DNA of 64,000 nt from a virus, in the IMG/VR virus record IMGVR_UViG_3300047321_000170, positions 18,937 through 82,936 of that record, one strand, 5' to 3'. Positions 1,711 through 61,904 of this stretch are shown piece after piece. Made by a program: the position numbers and the translations under genes. A model generated the notes under the pieces. That model did no database searches. It worked only from the letters and a program-made list of their open reading frames with translations, and was not told where the DNA came from. How positions within the stretch are numbered: the first letter of the stretch is position 1; each line of letters begins with the position of its first letter.

Positions 1711-1736
1711 GGCACTCACCACCACCACAGAGTGCC
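1711..1736 (+). promoter_or_regulatory. CCACCAC-loop hairpin at the 5' end of the lysis mRNA
   Basis: GGCACTC and GAGTGCC form a perfect 7-bp stem around ACCACCACCACA. It lies at the predicted transcript start and ends 4 bases before the endolysin ATG, where a Shine-Dalgarno sequence would be; no AGGAG-like site is present. Confidence 0.7.
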
Positions 1737-1740
1737 CCTC

Positions 1741-2271
1741 ATGTCCGTCACATCCGATCAGCTGCGGAAGATCTGGACGCATGCTCCTTCAGTGCGCTGC
1801 GTGTCGTTCGCGCCGCTGCTGAGCAGCGCAATGCAGCGCTTTGGCATCGACACCCCCGAAGAGATCGTCGAGTTCCTGGCTCAAGTCTCGCACGAGTCTG
1901 GCGAAGGCCAGTGGCTCAAGGAGCTGGCCAGCGGCAAGGCCTACGAAGGCCGTAAGGATCTCGGCAACACGCAACCGGGCTGGGGTGTTCTCTACAAAGG
2001 CCGCGGCTTGATCCAATGCACGGGATACACGAACTACGTGCTTATGGGCCATCTGTTGGGCCTAGACCTGATCAACCATCCGGAGCTGCTGGAAGAGCCC
2101 GCTAACGCGTGCTTGAGCGCCGCAGCATTCTGGTGGAACCACCATCTCGATAACCTCGCGTTGAAGAAGGACTTCGTCGGTGTGACGAAGGTCATCAACG
2201 GCGGAACGAACGGCCTCAAGGAGCGTGAAGAGTATCTGGCGCTCGCCCGCGCCGCTCTGGGAGTGAACTGA
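1741..2271 (+). CDS. Endolysin, GH19 chitinase-like muramidase
   Basis: This protein of about 176 residues matches the phage GH19 endolysin fold. AQVSHESGE (about 47-55) carries the candidate catalytic Glu52, and YKGRGLIQCTGYTNY is the conserved GRG-Q-TG-NY block of the family. It would hydrolyse peptidoglycan at the end of infection. There is no signal peptide, so it needs a holin. ATG 1741 is preferred to GTG 1732, which lies in the hairpin arm. Its TGA overlaps the next ATG, starting the lysis cassette. Confidence 0.9.
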   Translation: MSVTSDQLRKIWTHAPSVRCVSFAPLLSSAMQRFGIDTPEEIVEFLAQVSHESGEGQWLKELASGKAYEGRKDLGNTQPGWGVLYKGRGLIQCTGYTNYVLMGHLLGLDLINHPELLEEPANACLSAAAFWWNHHLDNLALKKDFVGVTKVINGGTNGLKEREEYLALARAALGVN

Positions 2272-2681
2272 TGCCACGATCCAGCGACTTCATCGCAAGA
2301 CTAGGCTTCACGACCTACACACTGGTCGTGTGTCTCACTTCCATCTTCTCTAACAACTGGGTGGCGGTTGTGAGTCGGTATAGCGGAGGGGCGGTCTTCT
2401 CGACGCTCCTCCTGCTGACCGGCACGTTGCTGGTGATCGACCTGGTCATCAACGACCTCATGCCCGAGCGGTTCGTTTTCCAATGGGGTTTGAAGTGGCG
2501 TCACTGGGTCTACCCCTGCGTGTCATTTGCCTTCACGTCGCTCCTTTTTATCGCTGAACAAACCTATAAGAGCGTCCCTCTCGACGCCCTCGCGGTCTAC
2601 GGCTCGATGGCCCTTATCGGCGTCGTGCTGAGTTTCCGCAATCTCTTTTCTGAACGGGGTCGAGTGTGCAAAGAACACTAA
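2271..2681 (+). CDS. Multi-pass membrane protein of the lysis cassette
   Basis: A 136-residue protein with about four hydrophobic stretches (near 11-28, 38-60, 77-95 and 105-122) and basic loops. It starts in the endolysin stop (TGATG) and overlaps the following membrane gene. Position and topology suit a holin, antiholin or other lysis-timing protein. No family is recognised, so the role rests on context. Confidence 0.75.
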   Translation: MPRSSDFIARLGFTTYTLVVCLTSIFSNNWVAVVSRYSGGAVFSTLLLLTGTLLVIDLVINDLMPERFVFQWGLKWRHWVYPCVSFAFTSLLFIAEQTYKSVPLDALAVYGSMALIGVVLSFRNLFSERGRVCKEH

Positions 2682-3067
2682 GAATCTGGGCGCTCTTGCT
2701 GGCGCTCACCTGGTCCGCAGCGGCCTATGCAGCAACCCATGCACAAGTCGCATTCGGTTCTGACCTGGCCCGCATCCCGATGCTGGCCTATGTCATCACG
2801 ATCGTGCTGAGCGGCATCGGTGGCGCCGCTTCCACGCTTCAGAAGCTGTCGCGCGCCGCAGACCTGTCGCGCTGGCAGCTGGAGGTCGTGAAAGACACCG
2901 TGTCGGCAATCGTCGCGGGCCTGCTCGTGTTCTTCCTGTGCGAGTCGTTCGAGTGGGATTCAGCGCGCGAGGCCTTCGCGATCACGATCGCCGGCTACGG
3001 AAACTCGAAGCTGATCGACCTGATGTTCCGCAACTTCGTGAAGCAACTGCCGGAGCCGAAGCAATGA
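2666..3067 (+). CDS. Putative holin
   Basis: A 133-residue protein starting at GTG 2666. It has an N-terminal hydrophobic segment with a signal-like AAAYAATHA end, a second membrane segment (AYVITIVLSGIGGAAS), and a third (VSAIVAGLLVFFLC) before a charged C-terminus. This resembles phage holins that permeabilise the inner membrane for endolysin release. It overlaps the genes on both sides, so the cassette is tightly coupled. Which of the two membrane genes is the true holin cannot be decided here. Confidence 0.7.
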   Translation: MQRTLRIWALLLALTWSAAAYAATHAQVAFGSDLARIPMLAYVITIVLSGIGGAASTLQKLSRAADLSRWQLEVVKDTVSAIVAGLLVFFLCESFEWDSAREAFAITIAGYGNSKLIDLMFRNFVKQLPEPKQ

Positions 3068-3600
3068 GCCTCCAATTCACAGCCATTTGTGCCGCCGTCG
3101 CCGCGTTGGTTGCGGCAGGCGGCAGCTGGTACGTGACCCGCGATGTCTACAAAGCCGACATCGCAGTCATGCAACGCGACGCGGCGACTGCGGCGGAACA
3201 CGCGCAGCAGCATCTCGACAGCGCGCTGGCTTTCGCGCAGACGCAGTCTCAACTCGATCTCAACGCGATCGACCAGAACTACAGGACGAAGATCAATGAA
3301 AAGGATTCTCAGCATCAGCTCGATGTCGCTGCTGTGCGCAACGGCACTCTCCGCTTGCGTGACAGCGCCGCAACCTGCCGCGCCGCAGATGAACAAGTTC
3401 CAACTGGCACCAGTGTCAGCGGAGCTGATGGAGCCGGTGGTGCCGAACTATCGCCTGCGGCTACTGAGTTTCTTCTCGGAGAAGCCGACCGAGCAGACGG
3501 CCAAGCCCTTCGCGTTACAGCCCTCCAGCAAGTAGTCGCTGATGACCGCAAGGTCATCGACGAGCTGGTGCGCAGCTTGATGGGGGTAGCTGCAAAGTGA
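3064..3600 (+). CDS. Rz: Inner-membrane spanin (Rz-like)
   Basis: Starting at ATG 3064 the 178-residue protein has one N-terminal membrane segment (about 5-25) followed by a Gln/Ala/Asp-rich coiled-coil periplasmic region and LRLRDSAATC, typical of Rz proteins. With Rz1 it spans the periplasm and disrupts the outer membrane after the peptidoglycan is cut. A lipoprotein gene lies wholly inside it in another frame, the classic lambda-type Rz/Rz1 nesting. Confidence 0.85.
   Translation: MSLQFTAICAAVAALVAAGGSWYVTRDVYKADIAVMQRDAATAAEHAQQHLDSALAFAQTQSQLDLNAIDQNYRTKINEKDSQHQLDVAAVRNGTLRLRDSAATCRAADEQVPTGTSVSGADGAGGAELSPAATEFLLGEADRADGQALRVTALQQVVADDRKVIDELVRSLMGVAAK
3296..3535 (+). CDS. Rz1: Outer-membrane spanin lipoprotein (Rz1-like), nested in Rz
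   Basis: ATG 3296 opens a 79-residue frame inside the Rz gene. The signal peptide ends in lipobox LSAC, with Cys21 as the predicted lipidated residue, followed by a Pro-rich mature N-terminus (VTAPQPAAPQ). Both features are typical of Rz1. The coding is entirely out of frame with Rz. Confidence 0.85.
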   Translation: MKRILSISSMSLLCATALSACVTAPQPAAPQMNKFQLAPVSAELMEPVVPNYRLRLLSFFSEKPTEQTAKPFALQPSSK

Positions 3601-4301
3601 CCATCGCTGCTCCGCTCTCAGTCGCGCCTGTCAATCCGGAAGGCCAGCCGATCGTGCTGGTCATCGCGCCGGTCTACAACAATCTCGGAACAAACATGCC
3701 TGTGAAGCTCCTGCATGGAAGTGGTGCGCCGTCTAATGACATCGGTACGGACGGCGACTCCTACATGAACGACGACAACGGATACTTCTACGGGCCGAAA
3801 GCAAACGGCCTGTGGCCGTCTGGCTACTCGCTGAAGGGGAACACCGGGGATCGTGGGCTCGATGGCGCACCGGGCGATCCGGGGCCTGCTGGCCCCAAGG
3901 GCGCTGACGGCGCAGCTGGTCCGCAGGGTCCGAAAGGCGACAGCTTCTATGACGTGTTCACGTACCCGATTCCGGACGTGGCGCCGGGGGCGCATGCCGA
4001 GCTGGACATGACAGGCTCGGTCCCCTCCTTCGGCAAGACCACCGTCATGTTCCAGTCGGTGCGCGTGGTCGTGCAGACGGCCGATCCGTACCGCATCGAG
4101 ATCTGCGAGCGTGACGCGCAGAACGCCGACACGGTGATCTACGCAAGCGCGCCGCAGCTCGACGCTTCGTACCGTGACAGTCGGCCGTTCACTGCGGACA
4201 AGCTCGATCCTGCGAACAAGCTGATCTTCAAGTTCTATAACCAGGCGTCGAGCACGACGATCTCTGGCGCGCAGTTGCGCACTGTCTCGACGGGAGTGTA
4301 A
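3597..4301 (+). CDS. Collagen-like tail/fibre protein
   Basis: A 234-residue protein starting at GTG 3597, which overlaps the Rz stop as GTGA. The N-terminal part ends in GYFYGPKANGLWPSGYSL, a tail-attachment type of stretch. About 12 Gly-X-Y triplets follow (residues 83-118), then a beta-rich C-terminal domain. The collagen segment predicts trimerisation. It is probably a virion fibre or adhesin component, since fibre genes follow directly. Confidence 0.75.
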   Translation: MTIAAPLSVAPVNPEGQPIVLVIAPVYNNLGTNMPVKLLHGSGAPSNDIGTDGDSYMNDDNGYFYGPKANGLWPSGYSLKGNTGDRGLDGAPGDPGPAGPKGADGAAGPQGPKGDSFYDVFTYPIPDVAPGAHAELDMTGSVPSFGKTTVMFQSVRVVVQTADPYRIEICERDAQNADTVIYASAPQLDASYRDSRPFTADKLDPANKLIFKFYNQASSTTISGAQLRTVSTGV

Positions 4302-8891: not shown

Positions 8892-8898
8892 GCACCAC

Positions 8899-8918
8899 CG
8901 CCCGTCCACCACCGGGCG
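8899..8918 (+). promoter_or_regulatory. CCACCAC-loop hairpin
   Basis: CGCCCG and CGGGCG form a perfect 6-bp stem with loop TCCACCAC. It lies between two co-directional tail genes, 18 bases before the next start, and is followed by a separate AAGGA site. Confidence 0.7.
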
Positions 8919-8936
8919 CCTACAAGGAAATGGATC

Positions 8937-12174: not shown

Positions 12175-12481
12175 GCAGCTACCCACCCTTCTGCCCTACC
12201 ACCCCAAAAGTGGGTAGCTAGTCGGGTAGCTAGAGCCTAATTTTACTGGTCTGTTCACCGCAAACCCTTATGCAGCAAGGCTGCGAGAAATTCATGAAGA
12301 TTGCCACCTGCAATCTCCATTGATGTGTTTTAACGTACCGGAGTGTTTCAGGCAATCCCCGGAAAGCCCTGCCCAGCAAGGGTTCGTGTTCCGTAGTGTT
12401 TCATAATGTTTCGCGATACCACGCGAAATATGGGTAGCTAGGTGGGTAGCTAGAGCACGTATAATCGCGCCTAGCTACCCA
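12175..12481. other. attP: Probable attP region with six mirrored arm-type repeats
   Basis: The 11-mer TGGGTAGCTAG occurs directly at 12211 (paired with CGGGTAGCTAG at 12223) and again at 12431 and 12443. Both pairs have the same 12-base pitch. Inverted copies lie outside each pair at 12175-12185 (9 of 11 bases) and 12471-12481 (exact). The mirror arrangement around a 197-base centre, between excisionase-like and integrase genes, fits integrase arm sites flanking a core. The core itself is not identified. The rest of 12102-12496 holds no credible gene. Confidence 0.65.
12460..12465 (+). promoter_or_regulatory. Integrase promoter -10 inside arm sites
   Basis: A perfect TATAAT lies between the last direct arm site and the inverted one. 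No good -35 is present, so activity is probably shaped by proteins bound to the arm repeats. Confidence 0.5.
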
Positions 12482-12496
12482 CCACAGAGACCTACG

Positions 12497-17917: not shown

Positions 17918-17926
17918 CTTCGGTTC

Positions 17927-17948
17927 AGGGCCGGTGGTGGACGGCCCT
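17927..17948 (-). promoter_or_regulatory. CCACCAC-loop hairpin before thyX
   Basis: AGGGCCG and CGGCCCT form a perfect 7-bp stem; the loop on the mRNA is UCCACCAC. It is intercistronic, 9 bases before the ThyX ATG. Confidence 0.72.
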
Positions 17949-17961
17949 GCCTGTTGTCGTT

Positions 17962-18537: not shown

Positions 18538-18565
18538 GATGTGGTGGTAGTGGTGGTGGTGAAAT

Positions 18566-23147: not shown

Positions 23148-23214
23148 GTGGTGGTGGTGTGCATCGATTATATCTAGCTAGTACCTCTAAGGTTCAAGGA
23201 ACTAGCTGATAGTT
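23148..23214 (-). promoter_or_regulatory. Promoter, operator and CACCACCAC leader for the nuclease/recombination operon
   Basis: On the minus strand: operator AACTAGCTGATAGTT (23200-23214), -35 TTGAAC (23192-23197), a 19-base spacer, perfect -10 TATAAT (23167-23172), then CACCACCACCAC (23148-23159) at the predicted transcript start. Confidence 0.7.
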
Positions 23215-27661: not shown

Positions 27662-27681
27662 GATCCGTGGTGGTGGTGATC
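27662..27681 (-). promoter_or_regulatory. CCACCAC-loop hairpin, weak stem
   Basis: GATC pairs with GATC around a 12-base loop ACCACCACCACG on the mRNA, the same loop length as the hairpin before the endolysin. It lies 7 bases before ATG 27655. Confidence 0.45.
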
Positions 27682-28528: not shown

Positions 28529-29269
28529 TTACGCCGTCGCGCCTTCTTCCTGCTCCACTTCGACGTATTCGCCGAGCGACGCCCAGCACATCACGCCCCA
28601 GGCGTTGCCCGCCTTGTTCGTCATGCGCTTCGACGTGACCTTCACATGCACTTGCGCGCCGATCAGACCTTCCTGCATTACGCGCTGGTAGAAGTCCTGC
28701 CATTCGCGCCAGTTGGTCGTCGAGGTCGCGTAGCCCACGCGTTGACCGGCCTTCGCCAGCACCGTGCCGTCCGGTGCGAGGACATCCTTGATCAGAACCA
28801 TCGGCACGTCAACGGAGCGGTACGGCTTCGCCTTGTTGTCGATGTTCGCAGCCTTGGTGACTGCTTCGTTCCACGAGATGCCCTTGTCCGACTGCACGCC
28901 GTCATACGTCGACCAGTACTGCGCCGGGTTACCGGCCTTGATCGACATCTTCGGCGCGAAGCCGATGCCTTCGGTCATGTCGATGTAGGCTTCGAATTCG
29001 GTGATCAGCTTGTCGCCGGCAGTGCCGATCAACATACCGAATTCTTTCACCTTCGCCCAGACATCGACGTTCATCGCGCCGGTCATGAGCTGGTCCATCG
29101 ACAACTTCTGGCCGGGGGCCGCAACTGCGCCCACTGCGGTCGTACCTACGACTGCGGGAACACCAGCGCCGCCTGCTGCTGCGGCTGCTGCTGCGGAGGG
29201 TGCGGCTGCTGCTGCGATCGCGCCAGCGTTAGCTTGAGCGCGTTCGATTGCTGCTTGGATCGGGTCCAT
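28529..29269 (-). CDS. Ala-rich replication-module protein, possible ssDNA-binding protein
   Basis: 246 residues with a low-complexity Ala/Gly N-terminus (about 1-55), a mixed alpha/beta body (DKLITEFEAYIDMTEGIGFAPK, KPYRSVDVPMVLIKD) and an acidic C-terminus (YVEVEQEEGATA). The acidic tail, position before the exonuclease and polymerase, own promoter and own terminator suit an abundant ssDNA-binding protein. No fold signature is certain. Confidence 0.6.
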   Translation of the reverse strand: MDPIQAAIERAQANAGAIAAAAAPSAAAAAAAGGAGVPAVVGTTAVGAVAAPGQKLSMDQLMTGAMNVDVWAKVKEFGMLIGTAGDKLITEFEAYIDMTEGIGFAPKMSIKAGNPAQYWSTYDGVQSDKGISWNEAVTKAANIDNKAKPYRSVDVPMVLIKDVLAPDGTVLAKAGQRVGYATSTTNWREWQDFYQRVMQEGLIGAQVHVKVTSKRMTNKAGNAWGVMCWASLGEYVEVEQEEGATA

Positions 29270-29315: not shown

Positions 29316-29346
29316 TCGCTGCTAAGGTGGTGGATCTCAGCGGCGA
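29316..29346 (-). promoter_or_regulatory. CCACCAC-loop hairpin at the predicted mRNA 5' end
   Basis: GCTGAG pairs with CTTAGC (one G-U) and the stem extends four further pairs past a mismatch; the loop is AUCCACCAC. It begins at about +2 of the promoter at 29355-29383. Confidence 0.68.
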
Positions 29347-33284: not shown

Positions 33285-33318
33285 GTTTCGATCCAGTAGA
33301 TGAAAGTTATTACAGTAG

Positions 33319-33342
33319 GACGCTCGGTGGTGGACGTGCGTC
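33319..33342 (-). promoter_or_regulatory. CCACCAC-loop hairpin before the KTSC gene
   Basis: Eight-base arms GACGCTCG and CGTGCGTC pair with one T-T mismatch. The loop on the mRNA is UCCACCAC. The hairpin lies between two co-directional genes. Confidence 0.65.
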
Positions 33343-33356
33343 TTACCGTATGCTGT

Positions 33357-35167: not shown

Positions 35168-35192
35168 TTGACTCCATTGTCAGAATGCTCAA

Positions 35193-35210
35193 GCGCGGTG
35201 GTGGTCGCGC
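35193..35210 (-). promoter_or_regulatory. CCACCAC-loop hairpin
   Basis: GCGCG and CGCGC form a 5-bp stem; the mRNA loop is ACCACCAC. It lies between the terminator at 35224-35256 and the leader mini-ORF. Confidence 0.62.
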
Positions 35211-35223
35211 ATCCTACAGATAC

Positions 35224-37002: not shown

Positions 37003-37782
37003 TCAGTCAAGGAAGAAGTGGCCGTTCTCTTCGGTGAATCCGTTATGCCGCAGATCCCCTTCCCAGTAGTGCTCCCAGTCGATGTAGCCGAACATCGGAT
37101 GCTGGTCGTCGATCAGCCCGGTCTCGACGGCCCAGTCCATCGCGAAGTCCTTTACGCTGTCCCAGTGGCCGCGATATGCGTCGCGGAACTTGTCGACCGA
37201 CGCGTCCTTGAGGTCGCCGCTCTGGCATGTATTGACCCAGATCATAAAGGCTTCCATCTCTTCGTCGCTGTCCAGCTCGCCGAGCACTTCCTCGATCTTC
37301 GCGATCTCGGACAGCGGCGTGTACTCGCCGATCAGCCCGTTCGGGTAGCCTTCGTGATCGTGGATCGCGTACTCCTCTGACGAGGGCAACTTGCCTGCCC
37401 CGTGGCAGCGCTCGCACACCTTGACCTCGATGTTCTCGCCGGCCTGGAACGCCTCCAGCGCGGCAAGGCGTGTCGCGCCCACGTAGTTCATCGCGTCGAG
37501 GTCCTGCTCAGCCACCCAGCGACCATCGGCCAGCATGCGGGCGTTCCAGCCCTTCGTCTCGATGGCGTTGTCCAGCTGCTCTTCGAGTGTGTTGTCCCCC
37601 TCGCAGTCGGGGCACGTCACCAGCACGTTCGGGAAGCGGCTGGTCAATAAGACCTTGTCTCGTACTTCCTCGTACAGCTCGTCGGCGTCCATGCCTTCGG
37701 TGTCGATCCAGGTGCCATGCAGAACGCCGTTGTTGTACGACGCAAGACAGGCCACATAAATGCGGCGGTCGGTTGTAGTCAT
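37003..37782 (-). CDS. ardA: ArdA-type antirestriction protein with zinc-binding insertion
   Basis: 259 residues, against about 165-180 for ordinary ArdA. The ArdA core is clear: RIYVACLASYNNGVLHGTWID, EEYAIHDHEGYPNGLIGEY and FRDAYRGHWDSVKDFAMDWA. Between the first two blocks about 65 extra residues carry CPDC (57-60) and CERCHG (123-128), a split zinc-ribbon. ArdA mimics DNA and inhibits type I restriction enzymes. The insertion is unusual and may change the target. The start follows CACCACCACATC. Confidence 0.85.
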   Translation of the reverse strand: MTTTDRRIYVACLASYNNGVLHGTWIDTEGMDADELYEEVRDKVLLTSRFPNVLVTCPDCEGDNTLEEQLDNAIETKGWNARMLADGRWVAEQDLDAMNYVGATRLAALEAFQAGENIEVKVCERCHGAGKLPSSEEYAIHDHEGYPNGLIGEYTPLSEIAKIEEVLGELDSDEEMEAFMIWVNTCQSGDLKDASVDKFRDAYRGHWDSVKDFAMDWAVETGLIDDQHPMFGYIDWEHYWEGDLRHNGFTEENGHFFLD

Positions 37783-37873
37783 GATGTGGTGGTGATGTTA
37801 GGTACAGACGGGCAGACAGAGCGCGGGGCCAGCCGCTTCTCTGTGAGCTATGGAATTGGGGGCTGCGGGTATG

Positions 37874-38150: not shown

Positions 38151-38181
38151 GATTGATCCTTCAATGTGGTGGTGGTGGTGA

Positions 38182-40730: not shown

Positions 40731-40747
40731 ACTCTGTGGTGGTGAGT
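40731..40747 (-). promoter_or_regulatory. CCACCAC-loop hairpin
   Basis: ACTC pairs with GAGT; the mRNA loop is ACCACCACA. The sequence continues AGAGTAATC-ATG, so the hairpin arm overlaps the Shine-Dalgarno position. Confidence 0.55.
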
Positions 40748-43912: not shown

Positions 43913-44178
43913 CCGTTGAGCCTCGCGTTGTCGTAGGCGAAGCTCTGCGCGTCGTCGATGTCCGTGTTGAACGGACAGATCACTTCGTAGACGCTGACGG
44001 AGTAGCCAGCACGGTGGTCGATGTTGGCCTGCTCGTCACGGTCATCGACAAACGAGAACAGCTTGACGACGAGATCGCCGTTGTTGCGGTTCTTCGACTC
44101 GACCGCGTGGAAGATGACGGTCTCGTCACTGCGCATGTCTATCGCCGAGAGCTTGGCGATGTAGCGGTTGAGGCTCAT
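43909..44178 (-). CDS. Unknown 89-residue protein
   Basis: MSLNRYIAKLSAIDMRSDET then LVVKLFSFVDDRDEQANIDH. Chain member with ATGA overlaps. No domain recognised. Confidence 0.65.
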   Translation of the reverse strand: MSLNRYIAKLSAIDMRSDETVIFHAVESKNRNNGDLVVKLFSFVDDRDEQANIDHRAGYSVSVYEVICPFNTDIDDAQSFAYDNARLNG

Positions 44179-44411
44179 GCCTGCTCCTCGATAAGTGCAG
44201 GACTGCACGTATCGACGTGCTCGTCGGTGTGGAAGATGACTTCAACGCGTTGCATACGCGCGACGAAGAACTCTTTCTGGACGTAGCCGCTGCCGCCCTT
44301 GTTTGCTTCCTGCTTGGCGTGGGCGATCGCGTTCTTCGAAGATGCGAACTCACGCGCTCGATAAGCACCCGTCTTGGTGGTGATGCGGGTGCGATAGATC
44401 GGTTTGCTCAT
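44175..44411 (-). CDS. Unknown 78-residue protein
   Basis: MSKPIYRTRITTKTGAYRAR, basic, then VARMQRVEVIFHTDEHVDTC. A GTGCAG dyad lies within its last codons. Confidence 0.65.
   Translation of the reverse strand: MSKPIYRTRITTKTGAYRAREFASSKNAIAHAKQEANKGGSGYVQKEFFVARMQRVEVIFHTDEHVDTCSPALIEEQA
44195..44208. promoter_or_regulatory. GTGCAG-N2-CTGCAC dyad
   Basis: GTGCAGGACTGCAC, inside the 3' end of a coding gene and just upstream of the 89-residue gene. Confidence 0.5.
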
Positions 44412-46414: not shown

Positions 46415-46723
46415 TCAGTGGCTGGTGTAGATGACCGAACCTTCGAACTGCGCATCGACCGTGACCTTCCCGTTGTAGTCACGGCGAACGTTCCAGATGG
46501 TGGCGCCGGTTTCGATCTCGAATTCGCGCAGCATGGCTTCCATCTTCAGGCCGAGCAGTTGAGCTGCGGTCTTGATCTCACGAGCGTGGTACGGAGCAGG
46601 CGCTTCGTTCTTGACTATCGTGAGCGCCGGTTGGGTGTTGGGTGTATCTGCGCTGTAGGCTTCGACGAGAGCGTCGGCAGCGGATTGTTGTGCGGGGCCA
46701 GCGTTGACGGTGGTGGTCGTCAT
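46415..46723 (-). CDS. Unknown 102-residue protein
   Basis: MTTTTVNAGPAQQSAADALV, then a helix and a beta end (GKVTVDAQFEGSVIYTS). Its leader holds a GTGCAG dyad and a CACCACCAC hairpin. Confidence 0.66.
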   Translation of the reverse strand: MTTTTVNAGPAQQSAADALVEAYSADTPNTQPALTIVKNEAPAPYHAREIKTAAQLLGLKMEAMLREFEIETGATIWNVRRDYNGKVTVDAQFEGSVIYTSH

Positions 46724-46755: not shown

Positions 46756-46780
46756 GTTGTGGTGGTGAAGGTGAAACGTG
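46753..46780 (-). promoter_or_regulatory. CACCACCAC-containing hairpin
   Basis: CACGTT pairs with AACGTG, with the mRNA loop UCACCUUCACCACCAC. It overlaps the GTGCAG dyad by 3 bases. Confidence 0.5.
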
Positions 46781-47652: not shown

Positions 47653-47918
47653 GTCGCCACCGCTTCTTCCACGGTGTACGTGTAGCGTGCCGAGCCGAGC
47701 TTGCCGTCCATCGCGATGACGATCCCGCATTGCGCAGCGAGACGATCGATGAAGTCTTCGAAGCTGTAGAAGTTGCGCGTATCCACGTTCTCGATCATGA
47801 GTTCTTCGAGCACAACGTGAATAGCGGGGCCAGCGTAGGAAACTCGCTTCTTCATATCCGCGATCATGTCGCCGAAGAAGTGGAAGTAACCGATCTCTTC
47901 TTTCGTGGTGGTGGACAC
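47649..47918 (-). CDS. Unknown 89-residue protein, start codon inside a hairpin
   Basis: GTG 47918 begins MSTTTKEEIGYFHFFGDMIA, then helical. The GTG is in the arm of a 5-bp CCACCAC-loop hairpin, and the ACCACCACG of the loop is also codons 3-5. AAGGA lies upstream. Confidence 0.68.
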   Translation of the reverse strand: MSTTTKEEIGYFHFFGDMIADMKKRVSYAGPAIHVVLEELMIENVDTRNFYSFEDFIDRLAAQCGIVIAMDGKLGSARYTYTVEEAVAT

Positions 47919-47920
47919 GA
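47903..47920 (-). promoter_or_regulatory. CCACCAC-loop hairpin enclosing a start codon
   Basis: TCGTG and CACGA form a 5-bp stem; the mRNA loop is UCCACCAC. The stem contains the GTG start. Confidence 0.7.
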
Positions 47921-48487: not shown

Positions 48488-48778
48488 CTATGCGAACAGC
48501 GGTTCGAGCGGCATGTGCATCGACGCGTCGCTGAACTGTTTGAGATGACTCATGAGAACGCGCGGGTTCTGGCGATTGGCCAGCATCACACGCAGCACGT
48601 TGTCGATGGTCTTGAGTGTTGCGTCGTCGGTGACTGCGCCGTGCTCAGCTGCATAGAGCTTGAGCATCAACGTGCGCAGTCGAGCGGGAATCGCGGTGTT
48701 GACTTCATGCGCCGCGCACTCGGCCATCGTGTCGAACACGAGACCGTCGCAGGAGCGGTAGCGTTTGAGTTCACGCAT
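48488..48778 (-). CDS. Unknown protein, second copy of a tandem pair
   Basis: 96 residues. LKRYRSCDGLVFDTM, TAIPARLRTLMLKLY and NRQNPRVLMSHLKQF align with the upstream gene (LKRY, DG-V, TAIP, QN), so these are tandem paralogues. Eight bases overlap the upstream stop. Function unknown. Confidence 0.68.
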   Translation of the reverse strand: MRELKRYRSCDGLVFDTMAECAAHEVNTAIPARLRTLMLKLYAAEHGAVTDDATLKTIDNVLRVMLANRQNPRVLMSHLKQFSDASMHMPLEPLFA

Positions 48779-49118
48779 TGCCAGCCTCTTGCGGCAGCGC
48801 GTTGAAGCCCTTCTCAACGAGGATGTGGTTAGCCGTCTCGCGGCTGCGAATGCGCTGATCCATCTCGTTGACCGCTTCGGCGTTTTCGAGGAAGTCCGAC
48901 AGGATCTCGATCACGTTCTGCGCGTCTCCCATGATGGCTTCAGCGATGGCGTTCGCCGTGTGATCGCTCAACTCGGCGATGCACTTCTCCTTGATCAGCT
49001 TCCCCAGTTGCTTCGGGATCGCGGTGAAGTATTCGTGGCGAATGGCCAGCTCGTGTTCGTTATGCACCACGCCGTCGCGAGTTTCGTAGCGCTTGAGGGT
49101 CTTCAGATGCTTGTTCAT
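48771..49118 (-). CDS. Unknown protein, first copy of a tandem pair
   Basis: 115 residues. LKTLKRYETRDGVVHNEHEL, YFTAIPKQLGKLIKEK and AQNVIEILSDFLENA share several motifs with the next gene. Duplicated and diverged. Role unknown. Confidence 0.68.
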   Translation of the reverse strand: MNKHLKTLKRYETRDGVVHNEHELAIRHEYFTAIPKQLGKLIKEKCIAELSDHTANAIAEAIMGDAQNVIEILSDFLENAEAVNEMDQRIRSRETANHILVEKGFNALPQEAGNA

Positions 49119-50438: not shown

Positions 50439-50813
50439 TTGTGGTGGTGAACTATCAGATAGTTGTGATGATTTCGCTCGCGGGCCAGCGCGGGGCTCAA
50501 AAACGGTGCAGGAATAGACTTTCCAAATCCTTTTTCTATAGTTAAATAAAACTATCTGATAGTTGGAGTCCTCACTCGTGGATCGATTTTTAAAGTCTAT
50601 TCAACCAACCTCTTCTCTTCTTGAATGGGGAATTGGAAGGAAGAAAAAGAAGAGAATAGGAAAAGCTAAGTGCTTGAAACGCAAAGCCAAAAGCTCCACA
50701 AACCACAACTATCTGATAGTTTGCGTTCGGCGCTCGATCCTACCCGTGGTCGGACTGGCCGCTCCGATTGGTATGCAAGTGGGCTCTCTGTGGAAGCGAT
50801 CTGTAATGTGGAG

Positions 50814-51666: not shown

Positions 51667-52368
51667 TTACGCTGCGGTCAGTGCGGGGAACGCCGCCAGT
51701 TCCGCCAGTTCCGCCAGCATGGCGCGGGCGTACTCTTTGCGCTGTGCTTCGGACATGTTCGCCAACACTTGACGCGTCAGTGTCACGAAGTCGCCCACTG
51801 TATCGATGCTTGCGCGCACCGATTCAACCGGCGCCCCCGTTTCGTCAAGCGCTTTCTGGGGCGCGGGCGATTCAACCGGGCCAGCATCTTTAGGCGTCTT
51901 TTCTTTCGGCTTTTTCTCGCTAGTCGGTTTGCTGAAACCGAATTCAGCGAAGAGTGCGTCCGTGCTGTGGCATTGCAGGCTAAAGAGCCATGCCTTAACG
52001 ATCGCGGCCGCGTCTTTATCGTCCGCTGCGTTCAACACTTCCACGACTTGCAACCCCTTGGTTGCCGCTTGCTTGCAAATGCCTACGGCTTTTTCGACAT
52101 AACGCTTAGCGGTGCCCATGCATGCATCCGCCAGTGTTGCGCGCGCCACTTCGTCCAGTGCGTCCCATGCTTTTGCGCCCTGACGTTGCGCCGCCAGTTC
52201 AAACGCGACGGGGCGCGTATTGTTCGTGGCAAAACCGCGTTCTGCGAACGAACCTTGACGCAGATAGACCGCGACCAATGCAGAGTAAGCGCCGCCTACA
52301 ACCGACTTTTCCGCCGTGACAATTGCTTTAACGGCAAACTTGATTTGTTCGATAGTCGGAACGTTCAT
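51667..52368 (-). CDS. Unknown 233-residue protein under two GTGCAG operators
   Basis: MNVPTIEQIKFAVKAIVTAE, then a helical domain to about 120, a Lys/Pro-rich linker (SEKKPKEKTPKDAGPVESP) and a helical C-terminus (AELAELAAF, from four TTCCGCCAG-type DNA repeats). Two GTGCAG dyads and a palindrome lie upstream, so it may be an autoregulated phage regulator or a major early protein. No family is recognised. Confidence 0.7.
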   Translation of the reverse strand: MNVPTIEQIKFAVKAIVTAEKSVVGGAYSALVAVYLRQGSFAERGFATNNTRPVAFELAAQRQGAKAWDALDEVARATLADACMGTAKRYVEKAVGICKQAATKGLQVVEVLNAADDKDAAAIVKAWLFSLQCHSTDALFAEFGFSKPTSEKKPKEKTPKDAGPVESPAPQKALDETGAPVESVRASIDTVGDFVTLTRQVLANMSEAQRKEYARAMLAELAELAAFPALTAA

Positions 52369-52384
52369 TGTAGAAACTCCAGTG

Positions 52385-52396
52385 ATAAGCGCTTAT
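52385..52396. promoter_or_regulatory. Palindrome ATAAGCGCTTAT
   Basis: A perfect 12-base palindrome 17 bases before the 233-residue gene; possible third operator type. Confidence 0.5.
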
Positions 52397-52423
52397 GTGT
52401 GCGCTGATTAGCCAGTATGTAAA

Positions 52424-52437
52424 GTGCAGTTCTGCAC
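52424..52437. promoter_or_regulatory. GTGCAG-N2-CTGCAC dyad
   Basis: AAGTGCAGTTCTGCACTT, the best extended version of this dyad family. Confidence 0.65.
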
Positions 52438-52460
52438 TTTTCTTTTTCCCCTTGCTAAAA

Positions 52461-52475
52461 GTGCAGACGCTGCAC
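52461..52475. promoter_or_regulatory. GTGCAG-N3-CTGCAC dyad
   Basis: GTGCAGACGCTGCAC, 24 bases from the preceding dyad, flanked by AAAA and TTTT. Confidence 0.65.
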
Positions 52476-52509
52476 TTTTGCGCGGGCTATGGGCGCATGC
52501 ACCCATAGC

Positions 52510-52531
52510 GGGCGTGGTGGTGGACACGCCC
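52510..52531 (-). promoter_or_regulatory. CCACCAC-loop hairpin
   Basis: GGGCGTG and CACGCCC form a perfect 7-bp stem; the mRNA loop is UCCACCAC. It is 142 bases before the 233-residue gene. Confidence 0.72.
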
Positions 52532-52697
52532 TGCTTCGCTCTCCCTTGCGGGATTAGTAACACTATACCTAGATATTATTAGAGGGGGAAGCGAGAAGAA
52601 TCCGATTACCCGAAAACCAGTCATTTTAAAATTTCCGATTTTCTTATATAGGTATAGTATTATCAAAATTCACCGCCACAGCCCCATCCCCTGCCCT

Positions 52698-53261
52698 ATG
52701 TCCCAAGATAAATTCACCCGAGACCAATTCACCGTCGAGCTTGCGAGAGAGTGGTTTGCCTACGATGCTGAAGCCGGCGTAGTAATCAGGATCAAGAATC
52801 CTAAGAAGGGTCCGCAGACGGCCGGCACGCGAGCCGGAGCGCCTCATAAAGCGAGTGGCATGCGCCAGGTCATCTTTCGTGGCGTGAGCGTCTATGAGCA
52901 GCAGCTCGTCTGGGCGCTATGCAAGGGAGCGTGGCCGACATCCAAGCTCAGGTTCAAAGACGGCGACCCTCTCAACTGTCGAATTGAGAACTTGTGTGGG
53001 GCAACGAATACAGCAGATGATTACAAGGCGTTACAGTCCAAGACTGTCAGGGAATCCTTACCCCTCTCTGGCGTAATTCCTACCTCAAGTGGGAAGTTCA
53101 AGGCTCAAATTTTCCGAGAGCGGATGATCTATCTAGGCACGTTCGATACTCCTGAGAGTGCAAGTGCGGCATACCTGACAGCCAAGTCAGTCCTTCATGA
53201 TCCGCTTAATAGAGGGAAATCGACAGTTGAGCTACTTGAGGGACTACCAAAACTGGGTTAA
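52698..53261 (+). CDS. HNH/AP2-type endonuclease with degenerate HNH motif
   Basis: 187 residues. The HNH_3-like part is YEQQLVWALCKGAWPTSKLR then DGDPLNCRIENL; the usual His residues of HRLVW and DHINGD are absent (EQQLVW, RFKDGD). The C-terminal AP2 DNA-binding domain is GKFKAQIFRERMIYLGTFDT. It is isolated on the plus strand amid minus-strand genes, is less GC-rich, and is probably a homing-type mobile gene, perhaps inactive. Confidence 0.78.
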   Translation: MSQDKFTRDQFTVELAREWFAYDAEAGVVIRIKNPKKGPQTAGTRAGAPHKASGMRQVIFRGVSVYEQQLVWALCKGAWPTSKLRFKDGDPLNCRIENLCGATNTADDYKALQSKTVRESLPLSGVIPTSSGKFKAQIFRERMIYLGTFDTPESASAAYLTAKSVLHDPLNRGKSTVELLEGLPKLG

Positions 53262-53609
53262 GGAAACCTTAAAGCCAAGTTTTGAGAGGTTGACTTTAGA
53301 GTTTGGTAGCTCCAACCCTTGCAAACGCACCTCAAGATGTTTATAGTTCCGTCTCAAGTGCTGCGTGATCTGTGGTGGTGAGCGCAGCAGCAGAGATGTC
53401 ATGTCTCTGTCACGACTGAGGGGTGGCCAGCTCCAAAGTCAACCGTCCTAGACGGTAGTTTTGATCCATTGTAGAAGCTCAAAAGCCCCACCGACTAGCT
53501 ATCGGCGGGGCTTTTCCTTTTTCAGCCTGAGAATCTAGGGCTGAACTCCAAGACTACTGTGTTTACATACAGCGTCAATACTTGTACTCCTTGTTGAACA
53601 CCTGCAGGT
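53262..53609. other. Non-coding region between HNH and primase genes
   Basis: No gene seen. Contains inverted repeats GGTTGACTTT (53289-53298) and AAAGTCAACC (53435-53444), a GCTGCG/CGCAGC hairpin holding CCACCAC on the minus strand (53360-53388), and a terminator at 53481-53515. Confidence 0.6.
53481..53515. terminator. Bidirectional terminator
   Basis: AAAAGCCCC-A-CCGA and TCGG-C-GGGGCTTTT pair with loop CTAGCTA; A and T runs flank it, so it can stop both the HNH transcript and the leftward primase transcript. Confidence 0.8.
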
Positions 53610-56129
53610 CTAGGCGGTGACGGGCTGCTCTCCAGAATGGTCCTTCGTCGTACTCGACGTACTCCCCGCTCCCACAAGTGTGAGGTTCTTGTACTCGACA
53701 GACTGGCCTCCCATCGGGGTTTGCTCGATCGTAAGTTTGAATCCGAACTCGGTAGCCAATTCCCTCATCTTTGCTCTGAACTGAGTCGATCCAACAGGCC
53801 GCGCAGATCCCGGCCCGACGCAGAAGGACCAATATGCCTGATAGAGCTTCGTTTCCGGTACGGATGTGGGGGTCGAAGTCTTCGACCCAGCGGACTCCTC
53901 TTGTTGGAGAGCGAGAATCCGCACTTTCCCGCTCTCCATGAGAAAAAAACGTACGCTGTTGTTCAGGTTCGCTACTTCACGCATGATCTGGGAGTGCGAA
54001 GTCGGGATCGTGAACTCGTTCGTGAGCTTCAGTCGTGACATCGCCTGCACTGCCCACGCAACGATGGCCTCACGCTCTTCAACCACGATGGCATCACCGA
54101 GATCCAGCCGACGCTCCGACGCTTTCACCGGACGGTTAAATTGGAGTACGAGCCATCTCCGATTGAACCCTTCCGATGTATCTTCCGTGCGCGGGTAGTG
54201 ATTCGACGCAAACCAATGCGTACAGATAGGGTTGAACCGGAAAATTTGCCCGCCCTTCATCTGTCCGGACATCTCAGCGCCGTCGATGATGTCCTTGAAC
54301 TTCTGGCCATCGACAGTCTTCTTCTCGCTCAGCTCACCAGCCACGTTGATGATCTTTTCGAACATTTGCGTCGGCAAAAACTTGTCGCTCCACTCGTTAG
54401 GAGGCACCGCGGAACGAGCTGTGTCTGGCACAAGCGCCTGTGCGATCTTCAACAGCTGTGATTTCCCTGACTTCGGAGCGCCTTGCAGCAAAATCGCACG
54501 TTGATAACGCGGTCCAAGACCGAAAAGCGTAACTGCCAAGGCTTCTTGGAGAGCCTGAATCTTGGCCTCGCAATCCTCGTCTTCACCCCAACTCTTCCTC
54601 AGAAAATCGAAAAACATCGTCGAATGACCAGCCGCTTCCGGCAAATAGCGGAACGGAAGCGTGTACGTCATGCCGTAACCCTGGTCATGCGGCAGCAATT
54701 TGAGGTCTTCCGTGAGAAAACCGTTCGCGAAGTTGACGCCCTTAACATCAATCGACTTAATTCCCTGTGTCATGAGCATTTTCATGACTTGAGAGACGCC
54801 GCGAATGTCGTTGAACTTCTTGCAGGCCGCGAGATGCCCATAATCAGAGCTGATCCGGGACATGATGTATTGGTCGTCCACCTTCTCCCAATGTGAACCG
54901 GCCCATTTCCACACGAACCCATTATGAGCGCGCACGGCATACAGCTGCTCCAGGTCTTTAATCACCGCGCGAGCGATCTCAGACTGGTCCTGGCCTTTGA
55001 TCTCGCCCATGCGCAGCTCTTTGATACGCGCTTTTAGGCTGGAAACACGAATTCCCATGCCAGCAGTCTGCGCGATGAACTCAAGCAGCCGGTCCTCTTC
55101 CAGCTTATTCAAAGTCGATGTGGTCGCAACCTTTTGCAACGCCTTGTCGACCGATGTTGCTCGACCCGGTGACTCCTTCGGATAGCGCTCAAACTCGTCA
55201 ATCAGGAACTGTTTCAAGTCCTCGAACGACCACTCCTCCTGCTCCTTCGTGATCTCAAGCCCCCACGACTCCTTCTCGGCGTCCGTCATGCCCTCGTCCC
55301 AGCCGGTCGGCAGCACCTTCTGCTTCTCGAACACGTCTCGCTGGAGGAACTTCAGCATGTTGCGGATGTGCTTATCCACATCGATAGGGTCGCCCGCGAC
55401 GTTCTCCACGAAGTCAGCTGCGTACGCCTGAAGCATGCCGATGGCTTCCTTCAATGTGCGATCGCCGCGGATCACCGCGTAAGCGAACAGTCCTGCGCGC
55501 TCAGTCAGGCTCGTGTCGCGCGAGCCCGCCGAAGCATAGTCCACCACGCGCGTCCAACCAGAGTGCGACAGCTCGACGCCGGCCTCGGTGAGCGCGGCGC
55601 GCAGCAGAACCTCGATGTTCTCGTCGAGCGGCTGGAGATTCTTGTGAACGTCAACCAGGTCGCAGTTAGCCTGGTACGGCAGCTGCGTGTCCGGATGGAT
55701 CGACGGCGGCAGCACCGACTGCGTGCGAGCCGACAGCATTTCGCAGATCGTCTGCCCGCTGGTGTTCTTGATCCGGAAGGTCTTCAGGCCCGAGTAGCGA
55801 TACGCGAGCATGACGCCCTTCTTGCCGATGCGGCGCCAAGGAGAAACCGGCAACAGCTGCTCGATCACGTTCATCAACCGCACGTCTTCCGTGTCGATGT
55901 CCATCATCACGATGCCCGACTGCGGGCCGAGCACGATGCCGATGTTCGAGTCGCGGCACTGCTCAATCCAGCTGGCCTGTTGCTCAGGCTCGACCGGATG
56001 ATCGAAGTAACGCGACCAGTCGTTCGGGATAGGCTTCTTTTCGCGCGGGTACAGCGGAATCACTGGCAGGCCGGCCGCGTAGTAGCGCGGCGCGGTCTCA
56101 GCGAAGATGGGGAGGCGTTCGATCTTCAT
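53610..56129 (-). CDS. Primase-polymerase/SF3-like helicase
   Basis: 839 residues. The N-terminal prim-pol domain has YYAAGLPVIPLYPREKKPI, IGIVLGPQSGIVMMDIDTED (catalytic acidic residues) and PSIHPDTQLPYQ. The C-terminal helicase half has Walker A GAPKSGKS near 551, FLPTQMFEKIINVAGELSE and FNRRWLVLQFNRP. It primes and unwinds for the phage polymerase and is the only clear replicative helicase seen. The leader is CCCCACCACAGAAGAGACC. Confidence 0.88.
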   Translation of the reverse strand: MKIERLPIFAETAPRYYAAGLPVIPLYPREKKPIPNDWSRYFDHPVEPEQQASWIEQCRDSNIGIVLGPQSGIVMMDIDTEDVRLMNVIEQLLPVSPWRRIGKKGVMLAYRYSGLKTFRIKNTSGQTICEMLSARTQSVLPPSIHPDTQLPYQANCDLVDVHKNLQPLDENIEVLLRAALTEAGVELSHSGWTRVVDYASAGSRDTSLTERAGLFAYAVIRGDRTLKEAIGMLQAYAADFVENVAGDPIDVDKHIRNMLKFLQRDVFEKQKVLPTGWDEGMTDAEKESWGLEITKEQEEWSFEDLKQFLIDEFERYPKESPGRATSVDKALQKVATTSTLNKLEEDRLLEFIAQTAGMGIRVSSLKARIKELRMGEIKGQDQSEIARAVIKDLEQLYAVRAHNGFVWKWAGSHWEKVDDQYIMSRISSDYGHLAACKKFNDIRGVSQVMKMLMTQGIKSIDVKGVNFANGFLTEDLKLLPHDQGYGMTYTLPFRYLPEAAGHSTMFFDFLRKSWGEDEDCEAKIQALQEALAVTLFGLGPRYQRAILLQGAPKSGKSQLLKIAQALVPDTARSAVPPNEWSDKFLPTQMFEKIINVAGELSEKKTVDGQKFKDIIDGAEMSGQMKGGQIFRFNPICTHWFASNHYPRTEDTSEGFNRRWLVLQFNRPVKASERRLDLGDAIVVEEREAIVAWAVQAMSRLKLTNEFTIPTSHSQIMREVANLNNSVRFFLMESGKVRILALQQEESAGSKTSTPTSVPETKLYQAYWSFCVGPGSARPVGSTQFRAKMRELATEFGFKLTIEQTPMGGQSVEYKNLTLVGAGSTSSTTKDHSGEQPVTA

Positions 56130-56683
56130 ACGGTCTCTTCTGTGGTGGGGTCAGTCGCGCCATCGTCAGCTGCTGCTGAACGGGCCAGGACGCTCCTGAG
56201 TCGATCCATAACGTCCGTACGCTGGTCAGGCGACAGGACTTCTTCCATGATCGTGAGCACGGTGTCCTGGAAGTCTTTGATCTGCTTGACTCCCAGCGCG
56301 CGCTCGCGAGCATTCACAAGACGTTCGAGCAAACTGGTCGCGGTGCGGAAATAGGCCATCCGCTCCGTTTGATCCGACTGCCCGATGGTCTTGCCGTAGG
56401 CTTTCAGCTCCGTGAAGACTGAGTGCAAGTCTCCAGCGAGCGTGCTGTCAATTTCATCCTCCGATACGGGGGCTGAGACAGGCGGTTTCTCGGTTGACTC
56501 TTCTTTTTCCTCCCTTGATCCGTTGCCGAACGCGATAGCACGGTCAATGATGTTCTTGAACTGTGCGTCATAGGGACAATCAGGACTACGGAGGTACAGG
56601 ACATCCTCACTGGCCAGAGTGAGAATCGTCTTGACAGCCCACGTAGCGTGGTCCGTCAGATCGGGATAGTGGTAGTCGCTCAT
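56126..56683 (-). CDS. Possible terminase small subunit or replication-associated protein
   Basis: 185 residues from ATG 56683. MSDYHYPDLTDHATWAVKTI, then TATSLLERLVNARERALGVK and VLTIMEEVLSPDQRTDVMDR, a helical pattern that resembles some small terminase subunits. It overlaps the primase ATG and is divergent from TerL. The assignment is weak; a primase accessory role is equally plausible. Confidence 0.5.
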   Translation of the reverse strand: MSDYHYPDLTDHATWAVKTILTLASEDVLYLRSPDCPYDAQFKNIIDRAIAFGNGSREEKEESTEKPPVSAPVSEDEIDSTLAGDLHSVFTELKAYGKTIGQSDQTERMAYFRTATSLLERLVNARERALGVKQIKDFQDTVLTIMEEVLSPDQRTDVMDRLRSVLARSAAADDGATDPTTEETV

Positions 56684-60221: not shown

Positions 60222-60262
60222 ACGGGCTACTTTCACCAGGTGGTCCTAAACGCACCAACGTC

Positions 60263-61387: not shown

Positions 61388-61411
61388 TCACTCGCAACCC
61401 GAGAGGAAAGC

Positions 61412-61822
61412 ATGAGCAATGTAATCGGCAACGGAGTTTCGCTTCGTGGCATGTACCACGACGAATTCCAGTACCCGTTCCTGCTCGCTGCCGGGATCAC
61501 CAAAGCCGATGAAGGCAAAGCTGTTACTCCGGATGCGAGTGCGGCGAACACGGTGAAGCTGGCTGGCGACGGCGATCAGATCATCGGTCGCCTGGAAGTG
61601 GTCGAAATCCGCATCCAGGAAGGCATCAACATCGGTACGGTCTCGATCCAGGGTGGTCTCGACTACCCGTTGAAGGCTGCTGAAGCTGCACTCGTCAACG
61701 GCGACCGCGTCGTCGGCGGCGGCAGCGGCACGATCCGCAAAGCAGCCGCGGGCGTGTACTCGGCCTTCATGGCGACGGGCGAAACCAGCCCGAGCGGCAA
61801 CCCGGTAGTGATCAAAGCCTAA
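61412..61822 (+). CDS. Capsid decoration/stabilisation protein
   Basis: 136 residues. MSNVIGNGVSLRGMYHDEFQ then GITKADEGKAVTPDASAANT and GYSAFMATGETSP-type ending, a beta-rich head protein. GAGAGGA precedes the start. Position between protease and major capsid fits decoration or cement protein. Confidence 0.8.
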   Translation: MSNVIGNGVSLRGMYHDEFQYPFLLAAGITKADEGKAVTPDASAANTVKLAGDGDQIIGRLEVVEIRIQEGINIGTVSIQGGLDYPLKAAEAALVNGDRVVGGGSGTIRKAAAGVYSAFMATGETSPSGNPVVIKA

Positions 61823-61833
61823 CTCTGCTGCTC

Positions 61834-61847
61834 GCCCACCACCGGGC
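61834..61847 (+). promoter_or_regulatory. CCACCAC-loop hairpin before major capsid
   Basis: GCCC and GGGC pair with loop ACCACC; the sequence around it repeats 17 bases of the leader at 18-34. Confidence 0.55.
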
Positions 61848-61870
61848 CGCAGGAACTGGCTGAAGTACCC

Positions 61871-61904
61871 CGCGCGCGACACCGTCCACCACCGGCCGCG
61901 CGCG
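61871..61904 (+). promoter_or_regulatory. Extended CCACCAC-loop hairpin before major capsid
   Basis: CGCGCGCG pairs with CGCGCGCG, then CCG with CGG after a small internal loop; the loop is UCCACCAC. The strongest stem of the family, 30 bases before the capsid start. Confidence 0.72.

Follow-up and report, generated by a model that had tools for sequence, protein, structure and literature searches.

Hairpins with a fixed loop

The window analyzed here is a stretch of 64,000 nucleotides from an 82.9-kb siphophage genome, in which small intergenic hairpins with different stems present the same loop. This raises the question of whether they form an RNA element and in which process it would take part. 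The original prediction counted about 16 hairpins, which is too many: about ten were counted in the window, with loops mostly NCCACCAC, and the majority of the copies of the shared word, CCACCAC, lie instead in open C/A-rich stretches. The hairpin is just one way to display the motif.

The hairpin at 8897–8920 (+) closes the loop UCCACCAC with CGCCCG/CGGGCG, upstream of the gene that begins at 8937 (covariance model, E 7e-5); the one at 17926–17949 (−) has the same loop between CAGGGCCG and CGGCCCUG, immediately upstream of the ThyX-like gene, which starts at 17917; and that at 52509–52532 (−), GGGCGUG/CACGCCC around UCCACCAC, belongs to the 5′ region of a gene with its start at 52368 and is matched by the model. 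Their loops and stems are as described earlier for 8899, 17927 and 52510. The hairpins given as near-perfect at 33319 and 61871–61904 are indeed so. The former spans 33311–33350 (−), 5′ of the KTSC-domain gene, with an imperfect 16-bp stem and the loop UCCACCAC, and is a model match; the latter (+), also with loop UCCACCAC, is the second of a tandem pair upstream of the major capsid gene, with an inner model match only (E 0.76). The first of the pair, at 61824–61853 (+) with loop CCCACCAC, is matched by the model; it was absent from the earlier list. At 47903–47920 (−), previously called perfect, a hairpin is present, but its stem has 5 bp and includes the called GTG start, the motif forming codons 2–5 (E 0.7).

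Three of the reported variants were retained: 1711–1736 (+), GGCACUC/GAGUGCC with the 12-nt loop ACCACCACCACA, upstream of a gene that starts at 1741; 29316–29345 (−), with the 9-nt loop AUCCACCAC; and 35190–35213 (−; reported at 35193), with the 5-bp stem GCGCG/CGCGC around ACCACCAC, a model match. Those at 40731 and 49838 have stems of 4 bp only and are unconvincing as hairpins. The covariance-model search, which had been proposed earlier, matched most hairpins of the window, was weak for 61871–61904 and 47903–47920, and gave matches elsewhere that were in part taken as chance. No Rfam match at gathering score was found in the window. The 3′ flanks of the CCACCAC hairpins, read in the phage genome, hold no U-tract, and intrinsic terminators were rejected on this ground.

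The hairpins recur in the relatives G001–G009 with rewritten stems. That of the ThyX-like gene is kept in G001 (where its loop, the one 7-nt loop, is found), G002, G003, G005 and G007–G009, the stem being changed in some; that of the KTSC-domain gene is rewritten in G001 and G002; and at the 29316 site G005–G009 keep CCACCAC in the loop of different stems. The claim that stems covary around a fixed loop was borne out, as all eight pairs tested change on both sides and none of 500 shuffles reaches the score. Over ten genomes, 50 of the 246 sense intergenic copies have a stem score of at least 15, against 3.4 expected by flank shuffles; for copies antisense to genes the values are 3/67 and 3.3. 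The loop has 8 nt in 33 of these 50 strong hairpins, and fewer in none of them. The motif is also unpaired more than with shuffled flanks (0.852 vs 0.705, p 2e-15), an excess not found for antisense copies, and hairpin-forming rows contain nine G.U against two A.C. These results support CCACCAC as an RNA element with a fixed loop, a covarying stem and a sense orientation.

Strand and enrichment of the motif

The 34 intergenic copies of the phage genome form 24 clusters. The gene starts came from our own gene caller, which rewards Shine-Dalgarno (SD) sequences and missed at least one gene, an HNH gene at 52698–53261 (+); the stretch 52368–53610, once considered noncoding, was rejected as such when this gene was found. 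Before it was added, 34/34 copies faced the next gene, 31 of them in the window; with it, 33/34 do, and the sole exception is at 53372–53378. The earlier claim of "always" the sense strand nearly holds for this genome and is looser in relatives (in ten genomes, 17 intergenic copies out of 263 are not oriented toward the next called gene).

The comparison with shuffled intergenic sequence gave 33 copies in co-directional gaps (30 with the HNH gene counted) against a mean of 0.96 and a maximum of 4 in 100 dinucleotide shuffles. Equal numbers on the antisense strand, which the original prediction had named as refuting evidence, were not seen, the reverse complement GTGGTGG having no occurrence in these gaps. 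Coding copies of GTGGTGG do exist and were listed for four genomes. The enrichment is of the exact heptamer and not of C/A richness, as seven permuted heptamers occur 0–2 times in any genome. Among hexamers in the 50 nt preceding the starts of the phage genome, CACCAC has the strongest enrichment (49 vs 4.1 expected). The HNH gene was left out of this enrichment, of the first strand and gap counts, and of the ten-genome counts of stem scores, non-facing copies and leader SD strength, only the phage genome being recounted.

Some results count against a sense-strand translation element. Four of the 17 non-facing copies form hairpins, against 0.4 expected, and one of these is conserved in G007–G009; in addition, seven intergenic copies of G006 are non-facing, and its co-directional gaps contain six GTGGTGG.

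Translation starts and Shine-Dalgarno strength

Relative to start codons, the copies are concentrated between about −60 and +18, with codons 2–6 included. In ten genomes, this interval holds 192 of the 246 sense copies between genes and 88 of the 182 sense copies in coding sequence (for the latter, 14.7 expected). CACCAC is found in the first 18 nt of 44/1004 genes, with 1–10 in later bins (18 in one), and of 6/555 genes in the outgroups. The position is loose, unlike that of the SD, and 93 of 122 phage genes have no CCACCAC from −130 to +18.

Open copies without an SD include a cluster at 18541–18559 (−), which abuts the start of the MazG-like gene (18537); 23148–23157 (−), in the RecU-like gene leader; 37786–37792 (−), ending 3 nt before the ArdA-like gene start; and 50441–50447 (−), which stops 2 nt short of a start codon. 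Among the other open copies, a (CAC)n motif at 38166–38178 (−) precedes the SD of a gene that starts at 38150; 27667–27676 (−) reads CACCACCACCAC-GGATCAAAACA-ATG; 12479–12485 (+) is in the integrase gene leader; and 46759–46765 (−) is in the leader of gp99 (46415–46723), whose first codons carry the motif too. The copy at 56142–56148 (−) precedes the primase start (56129) and falls in the last part of the gene upstream.

The relation of the motif to SD strength, scored against an anti-SD sequence, is inverse. In the phage genome, 21 motif genes have −2.29 kcal/mol and 101 others −6.16 (p 5e-7); in ten genomes, with leaders of at least 15 nt, 114 genes with the motif have −2.49 and 330 without it −5.22 (p 2e-16). 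In G003 the difference is short of significance (p 0.06). Compared with 770 genes without motif (−6.06), the SD is weak both when the motif is upstream of the SD region (−3.96, 72 genes) and when it is only downstream of the start (−4.23, 34 genes), which argues against mere displacement. SDs are stronger in the JWF and 2-1 orthologs (10 pairs each, p 0.01 and 0.004, matching starts not required). Within ortholog families with matched starts, a test which lessens but does not fully remove the SD bias of the gene caller, motif-less members have the stronger SD in 29/35 (p 1.4e-4) and the opposite holds in six. For the capsid gene, G006, without the hairpins, has AAAGGA, and orthologs with the hairpins have GGAUC. 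The open copies by starts and the tie to weak SDs point to translation initiation and away from the suggested processing or stability signal. The earlier interpretation as an RNA element is kept.

RNA element after the primase gene

A conserved RNA element at 53321–53478 (−) occupies the gap where the primase and HNH genes converge with their 3′ ends. It presents the 17-nt loop CUCACCACCACAGAUC(A/G), with a varying closing stem at 53358–53390, and in the phage genome no same-strand start follows within about 1 kb downstream. The element was found in nine of the ten genomes; the tenth, G001, is a fragment without the primase gene.

Distribution among phages and in the host

Among the genomes examined the motif is clade-restricted, with no CCACCAC excess in JWF, 2-1, Lumi, G010 or G011. 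In the 8.6-Mb genome of a lysogen, 11 of 27 matches to CACCACCACN{2,14}ATG (CACCACCAC followed by ATG) fall in a 78-kb prophage stretch, two of the 11 overlapping. A 14-mer scan of IMG/VR returned at least 119 stretches, and 137 loci, from the scan and beyond, were gene-called; among the matches listed, the top ones outside the clade were L134 (six facing, one not) and L186 (three facing, none not), which resemble GC-rich coding sequence and were rejected as motif carriers. A scan with CACCACCACGGATCAAAACATG gave two records, both of the clade.

The covariance model was run on 34 loci, namely 25 of the at least 119 scan loci, eight remote relatives and the 23S locus, with five matches at E <0.01. 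Three were taken as chance: L119 is antisense to a called gene, L196 has no called gene, and L059, which is the G010 site matched earlier by the same model, has no CCACCAC. Such matches mean that the model alone is no proof of membership. A literature search, whose coverage excluded most subscription journals, found no description of the motif.

Proposed role and alternative explanations

We propose, with a probability of about one half, that CCACCAC is a clade-specific, positively acting cis element of translation initiation, read as single-stranded mRNA by a trans-acting factor; the proposal is drawn from sequence comparisons. Two forms of display would serve: an open, C/A-rich leader (CACCACCAC), or a small hairpin that carries the motif in its loop and needs no more of its stem than pairing. 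A factor encoded or recruited by the phage would bind the motif and promote initiation at starts close by, which would then do without a good SD. That the motif acts positively on translation is inferred, as are the factor itself and its origin. More tentatively, and at odds well short of even, the motif may be an initiation code of the phages' own: a phage factor tethered to the ribosome would read single-stranded CCACCAC in leaders, loops and first codons and recruit phage mRNAs without SD pairing over host mRNAs, and the orphan RNA with the same loop would tune the free factor. Should the motif stand in for the SD, a whole phage clade would be using a different start signal, perhaps together with a small protein of the phage that directs host ribosomes to viral mRNA. 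Such a signal would be a tool for translating chosen messages selectively and would allow the evolutionary swapping of translation signals to be tested, since JWF and 2-1 use the SD at the same genes where the clade has the motif.

An operator of a global Csr/Rsm- or RegA-like repressor, with a phage protein blocking initiation on CCACCAC and the post-primase RNA as decoy, seems unlikely. It would fit the start-region sites, the display in hairpin loops, the orphan RNA conserved in nine of ten genomes, and gp99, with the motif in leader and first codons; by itself it does not explain why motif genes lack the SD of their motif-less orthologs, and the motif stands on replication, nucleotide-metabolism and capsid genes alike. 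CsrA/RsmA binding sites have GGA in the loop, and the decoy RNA has many sites. What the element shares with that regulon is a short word in single-stranded RNA at gene starts, in many cases within a hairpin loop, and a possible decoy; the word, however, is CCACCAC and not GGA, it accompanies weak SDs instead of overlapping the SD, and the orphan RNA has one conserved CCACCAC loop and no array. An element of transcription or mRNA stability (antitermination site, processing hairpin or promoter hairpin read as DNA) is highly improbable. The hairpin of the ThyX-like gene does occupy the place of a terminator hairpin that is T-tailed in 2-1 and annotated in JWF, and TATAAT boxes precede two or more of the open motifs; but the hairpins here keep the loop fixed and lack a U-tract, open copies need no hairpin, and the position tracks start codons, codons 2–6 included. 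The SD relation, the single-strandedness of the mRNA strand and the excess of G.U over A.C also speak against it. Promoters of the N4 virion RNA polymerase, a giant enzyme with its own phage gene, have a 5–7-bp stem and a 3-nt loop. They too are small hairpins upstream of phage genes, but the loop here has 8 nt, most sites have no hairpin, positions are tied to start codons, and no RNA polymerase was found among 58 phage proteins scanned.

The closest known system is that of the ACA motifs of enteric bacteria, which enhance translation of yifK and dppA (Yang et al. 2014; PMC3879156). A C/A-rich enhancer of this type, read by host machinery such as ribosomal protein S1 with no phage factor, is nonetheless quite unlikely here. 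Both are short C/A-rich mRNA words near starts with no strict position, and CA repeats act downstream of starts (PMC3879156); ACA is present within 3 nt of the heptamer in 88/181 open copies. However, it is inside the heptamer in none of 231 copies (15 of intermediate stem score left out) and nearby in only 5/50 hairpin copies. One exact heptamer in one phage clade, dedicated hairpins with covarying stems, first-codon copies, weak SDs and a motif that is not common before host starts also set it apart. Pairing of CCACCAC with a G/U-rich small RNA of host or phage is very unlikely. Small RNAs such as GcvB act in the same mRNA region (PMC3879156), and the 23S rRNA of the lysogen has GUGGUGGA, an 8-nt complement, near its 5′ end; but this locus holds 4.8% of all 8-mers, and the match was judged likely chance. 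An antisense phage RNA was rejected on the absence of GUGGUGG from the co-directional gaps of the phage, and 16S rRNA pairing on that of GUGGUG from three 16S loci of relatives of the lysogen, no 16S having been found in the lysogen genome itself.

Candidate readers

For the translation element that we propose, one speculative reader of CCACCAC is gp93 (44175–44411, −), a basic protein of 78 aa present in 8/8 motif-bearing near-complete genomes and in 0/5 outgroups. Its predicted fold has no match at E ≤0.001 in PDB or BFVD; weak matches include DdrB, which binds ssDNA, and Dmd, a phage antitoxin. No RNA-binding regulator was found among 58 proteins with Pfam and 10 proteins with PHROGs. The structure model of gp99 has a mean pLDDT of 69. 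Weak matches were obtained to Alc at 48771–49118 (E 0.002) and to an HTH at 32645–33049 (E 8e-5, under the curated cut-off).

The phage and its relatives

The window spans bases 18937-82936 of a virus record 82,936 bases long. The record belongs to a siphophage akin to the Achromobacter phages JWF and 2-1 (primase identity 68-70%), and a prophage of Burkholderia paludis MSh1 is also related (major capsid protein 81% identical). Since an integrase gene is encoded, the phage is probably temperate. Nearer relatives are found in IMG/VR (G001-G009), which together with this phage form the ten genomes compared here; JWF, 2-1, Lumi, G010 and G011 are the outgroups. The window also carries an ArdA-like antirestriction protein (37003-37782) and, at 48771-49118, a gene whose product weakly matches the T4 Alc family (E 0.002).

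Excess of the motif before genes

Co-directional gaps of this phage hold 33 copies of CCACCAC on the mRNA strand, or 30 once the HNH gene missed by the gene caller (52698-53261, +) is added, against a mean of 0.96 and a maximum of 4 in 100 shuffles. Its reverse complement is absent from these gaps and each of seven permuted heptamers occurs 0 or 1 time. The relatives G001-G009 have 11-32 copies in such gaps and the outgroups 1-4. In the 8.6-Mb genome of B. paludis, 11 of the 27 matches to CACCACCACN{2,14}ATG (two of the 11 overlapping) fall in C1:183185-261430, the stretch carrying G007-like prophage sequence; the prophage ends were set from sequence offset, and the last match lies about 75 bases beyond them. 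The reversed control pattern has 8 matches in that genome. In this one host genome, the motif before starts is thus not a general host feature.

The original prediction held that the motif is always sense to the next gene. This is true of 33 of the 34 intergenic copies (34 of 34 by gene calls alone, before the HNH gene was added), and the sole exception here lies in an RNA after the primase gene. A conserved hairpin, GACUCACG-CCACCAC-GCGCGAG(U/C)C, in G007 (39027), G008 (40002) and G009 (37702) is not oriented towards the next called gene and is another exception.

The position of the motif is linked to translation starts. In the 50 nt before the starts of this phage, no hexamer is more enriched than CACCAC (49 vs 4.1 expected); AAAGGA occurs there 8 times (0.7 expected). 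Among coding sense copies, 88 of 182 lie within -60 to +18 of a start, with 14.7 expected, and 44 of 1004 genes have CACCAC within their first 18 nt, giving protein starts such as Met-Thr-Thr and Met-Ser-Thr-Thr.

Hairpin and open forms

Three of the hairpins first described are perfect (8899, 17927 and 52510) and two near-perfect (33319 and 61871). An additional one (61824-61853) precedes 61871-61904, and the two form a tandem pair ahead of the capsid gene. The hairpins at 1711, 29316 and 35193 are present in a looser form, the one at 47903 is present but short and on a called start codon, and those at 40731 and 49838 are not convincing.

Of the 246 intergenic copies in sense orientation across the ten genomes, 50 reach a stem score of at least 15 (3.4 expected from flank shuffles), and 33 of these 50 share the exact 8-nt loop NCCACCAC. 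For copies that run antisense to genes there is no stem excess (3 vs 3.3 expected, n=67). Covariation was measured on a set chosen without regard to stem, namely every copy in the interval from 125 to 5 nt ahead of the capsid, ThyX-like and KTSC genes and the gene at 28529-29269; the 51 copies, less six overlapping registers, gave 45 aligned rows (39 distinct), two of them kept in the shifted register in which the aligner placed them. Each of the eight pairs varies at both positions, 70.8% of cells are paired (47.6% when shuffled), and the covariation score of 0.536 (0.202 shuffled) is reached by 0 of 500 shuffles and by no slid register. In the number of both-side-changed pairs and of pair types the real rows do not stand out: 317 and 334 of the 500 shuffles do as well. 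The stems before the KTSC gene in G001 and G002 bear little resemblance to that of this phage, with the loop unchanged and the flanks conserved. In hairpin-forming rows G.U cells outnumber A.C cells by 9 to 2, which fits the expectation for the mRNA strand. A covariance model built from 26 hairpins and run on 15 genomes gave 34 matches at E <0.01: the 26 training sites, seven hairpins already chosen by stem score and a G001 site with a 7-nt loop. None lay in the five outgroups, where the best match was E 0.013 in G010. The predicted hairpins with a fixed loop and covarying stems are thus RNA structures under selection.

The motif occurs in two forms, as a hairpin and as open copies: 181 of the 246 score below 12 and are aCACCACCAC-like in C/A-rich surroundings. 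With both forms pooled, the native flanks leave the heptamer more unpaired than shuffled ones do (0.852 vs 0.705, p 2e-15), and antisense copies show no such difference (0.562 vs 0.533, p 0.36).

Relation to the Shine-Dalgarno sequence and possible mechanism

Mean Shine-Dalgarno (SD) pairing energy in this phage is -2.29 kcal/mol for the 21 genes that carry CACCAC near their start and -6.16 for the other 101 (p 5e-7); in G003 the difference was not significant (p 0.06). In JWF and in 2-1, the mean over ten orthologs apiece is -4.8, against -1.5 in this phage (p 0.01 and 0.004). In 35 families having members with and without the motif, the SD is weaker with it in 29 and stronger in 6 (p 1.4e-4); eleven control hexamers gave p 0.05 or more, and a twelfth had too few families. 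The effect is still present with the motif outside the SD region. The capsid gene has two motif hairpins in seven of nine genomes and one hairpin plus one open copy in G003; G006 has none there, but an AAAGGA SD. These comparisons suggest that the motif stands in for the SD.

The motif could act as an anchor for the 30S subunit, which would account for its loose position, its need to be unpaired, the first-codon copies and the inverse relation to the SD. Such an anchor has been argued for ACA motifs, with S1 as a tentative candidate (Yang et al. 2014, PMC3879156). Unlike those motifs, the heptamer is exact and lacks ACA; with its hairpin display and rarity before host starts, this argues for a more specific reader. 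A repressor acting through the motif is a possible alternative. Candidate readers, by correlation only, are the proteins gp93 (44175-44411, -), gp99 (46415-46723, -), gp105 and a 265-aa G002 protein; tblastn from four genomes places them in all eight near-complete genomes with the motif and in none of the five outgroups. The basic, 78-aa gp93 has a predicted beta-beta-alpha-beta-beta fold (pLDDT 80) with no significant structural match in PDB or BFVD. Separately, the 5' region of the lysogen 23S rRNA (L116), GUGGUGGA, is complementary over 8 nt to the commonest loop, UCCACCAC, possibly by chance.

Orphan RNA and other repeats

A 17-nt loop, CUCACCACCACAGAUC(A/G), lies on the primase strand in nine of the ten genomes, the exception being the fragment G001. 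In this genome it sits where the primase and HNH genes converge, between their 3' ends, with no same-strand start within about 1 kb. Both sides of its closing stem vary (GCUGCG/CGCAGC, GCUUCG/CGAAGC, GCUUGA/UCAAGC), and the G005 and G006 stems each contain a single mismatch. This RNA may be a decoy, or the leader of an uncalled small gene.

Two other palindromes look operator-like. AACTATnnnATAGTT has five copies (36250, 50450, 50550, 50707 and 50986), four within 50.4-51.0 kb. GTGCAG-n2/3-CTGCAC has ten (36406, 44195, 46741, 48413, 49252, 50193, 50936, 51458, 52424 and 52461); G002 and G004 carry 11 apiece and the other clade members none. JWF (loci L012 and L013) repeats GGTTCGTAACGAACC, and Lumi (L014 and L015) repeats TTACTAG(A/T)CTAGTAA; the palindromes differ by lineage, as if each had its own repressor operator.
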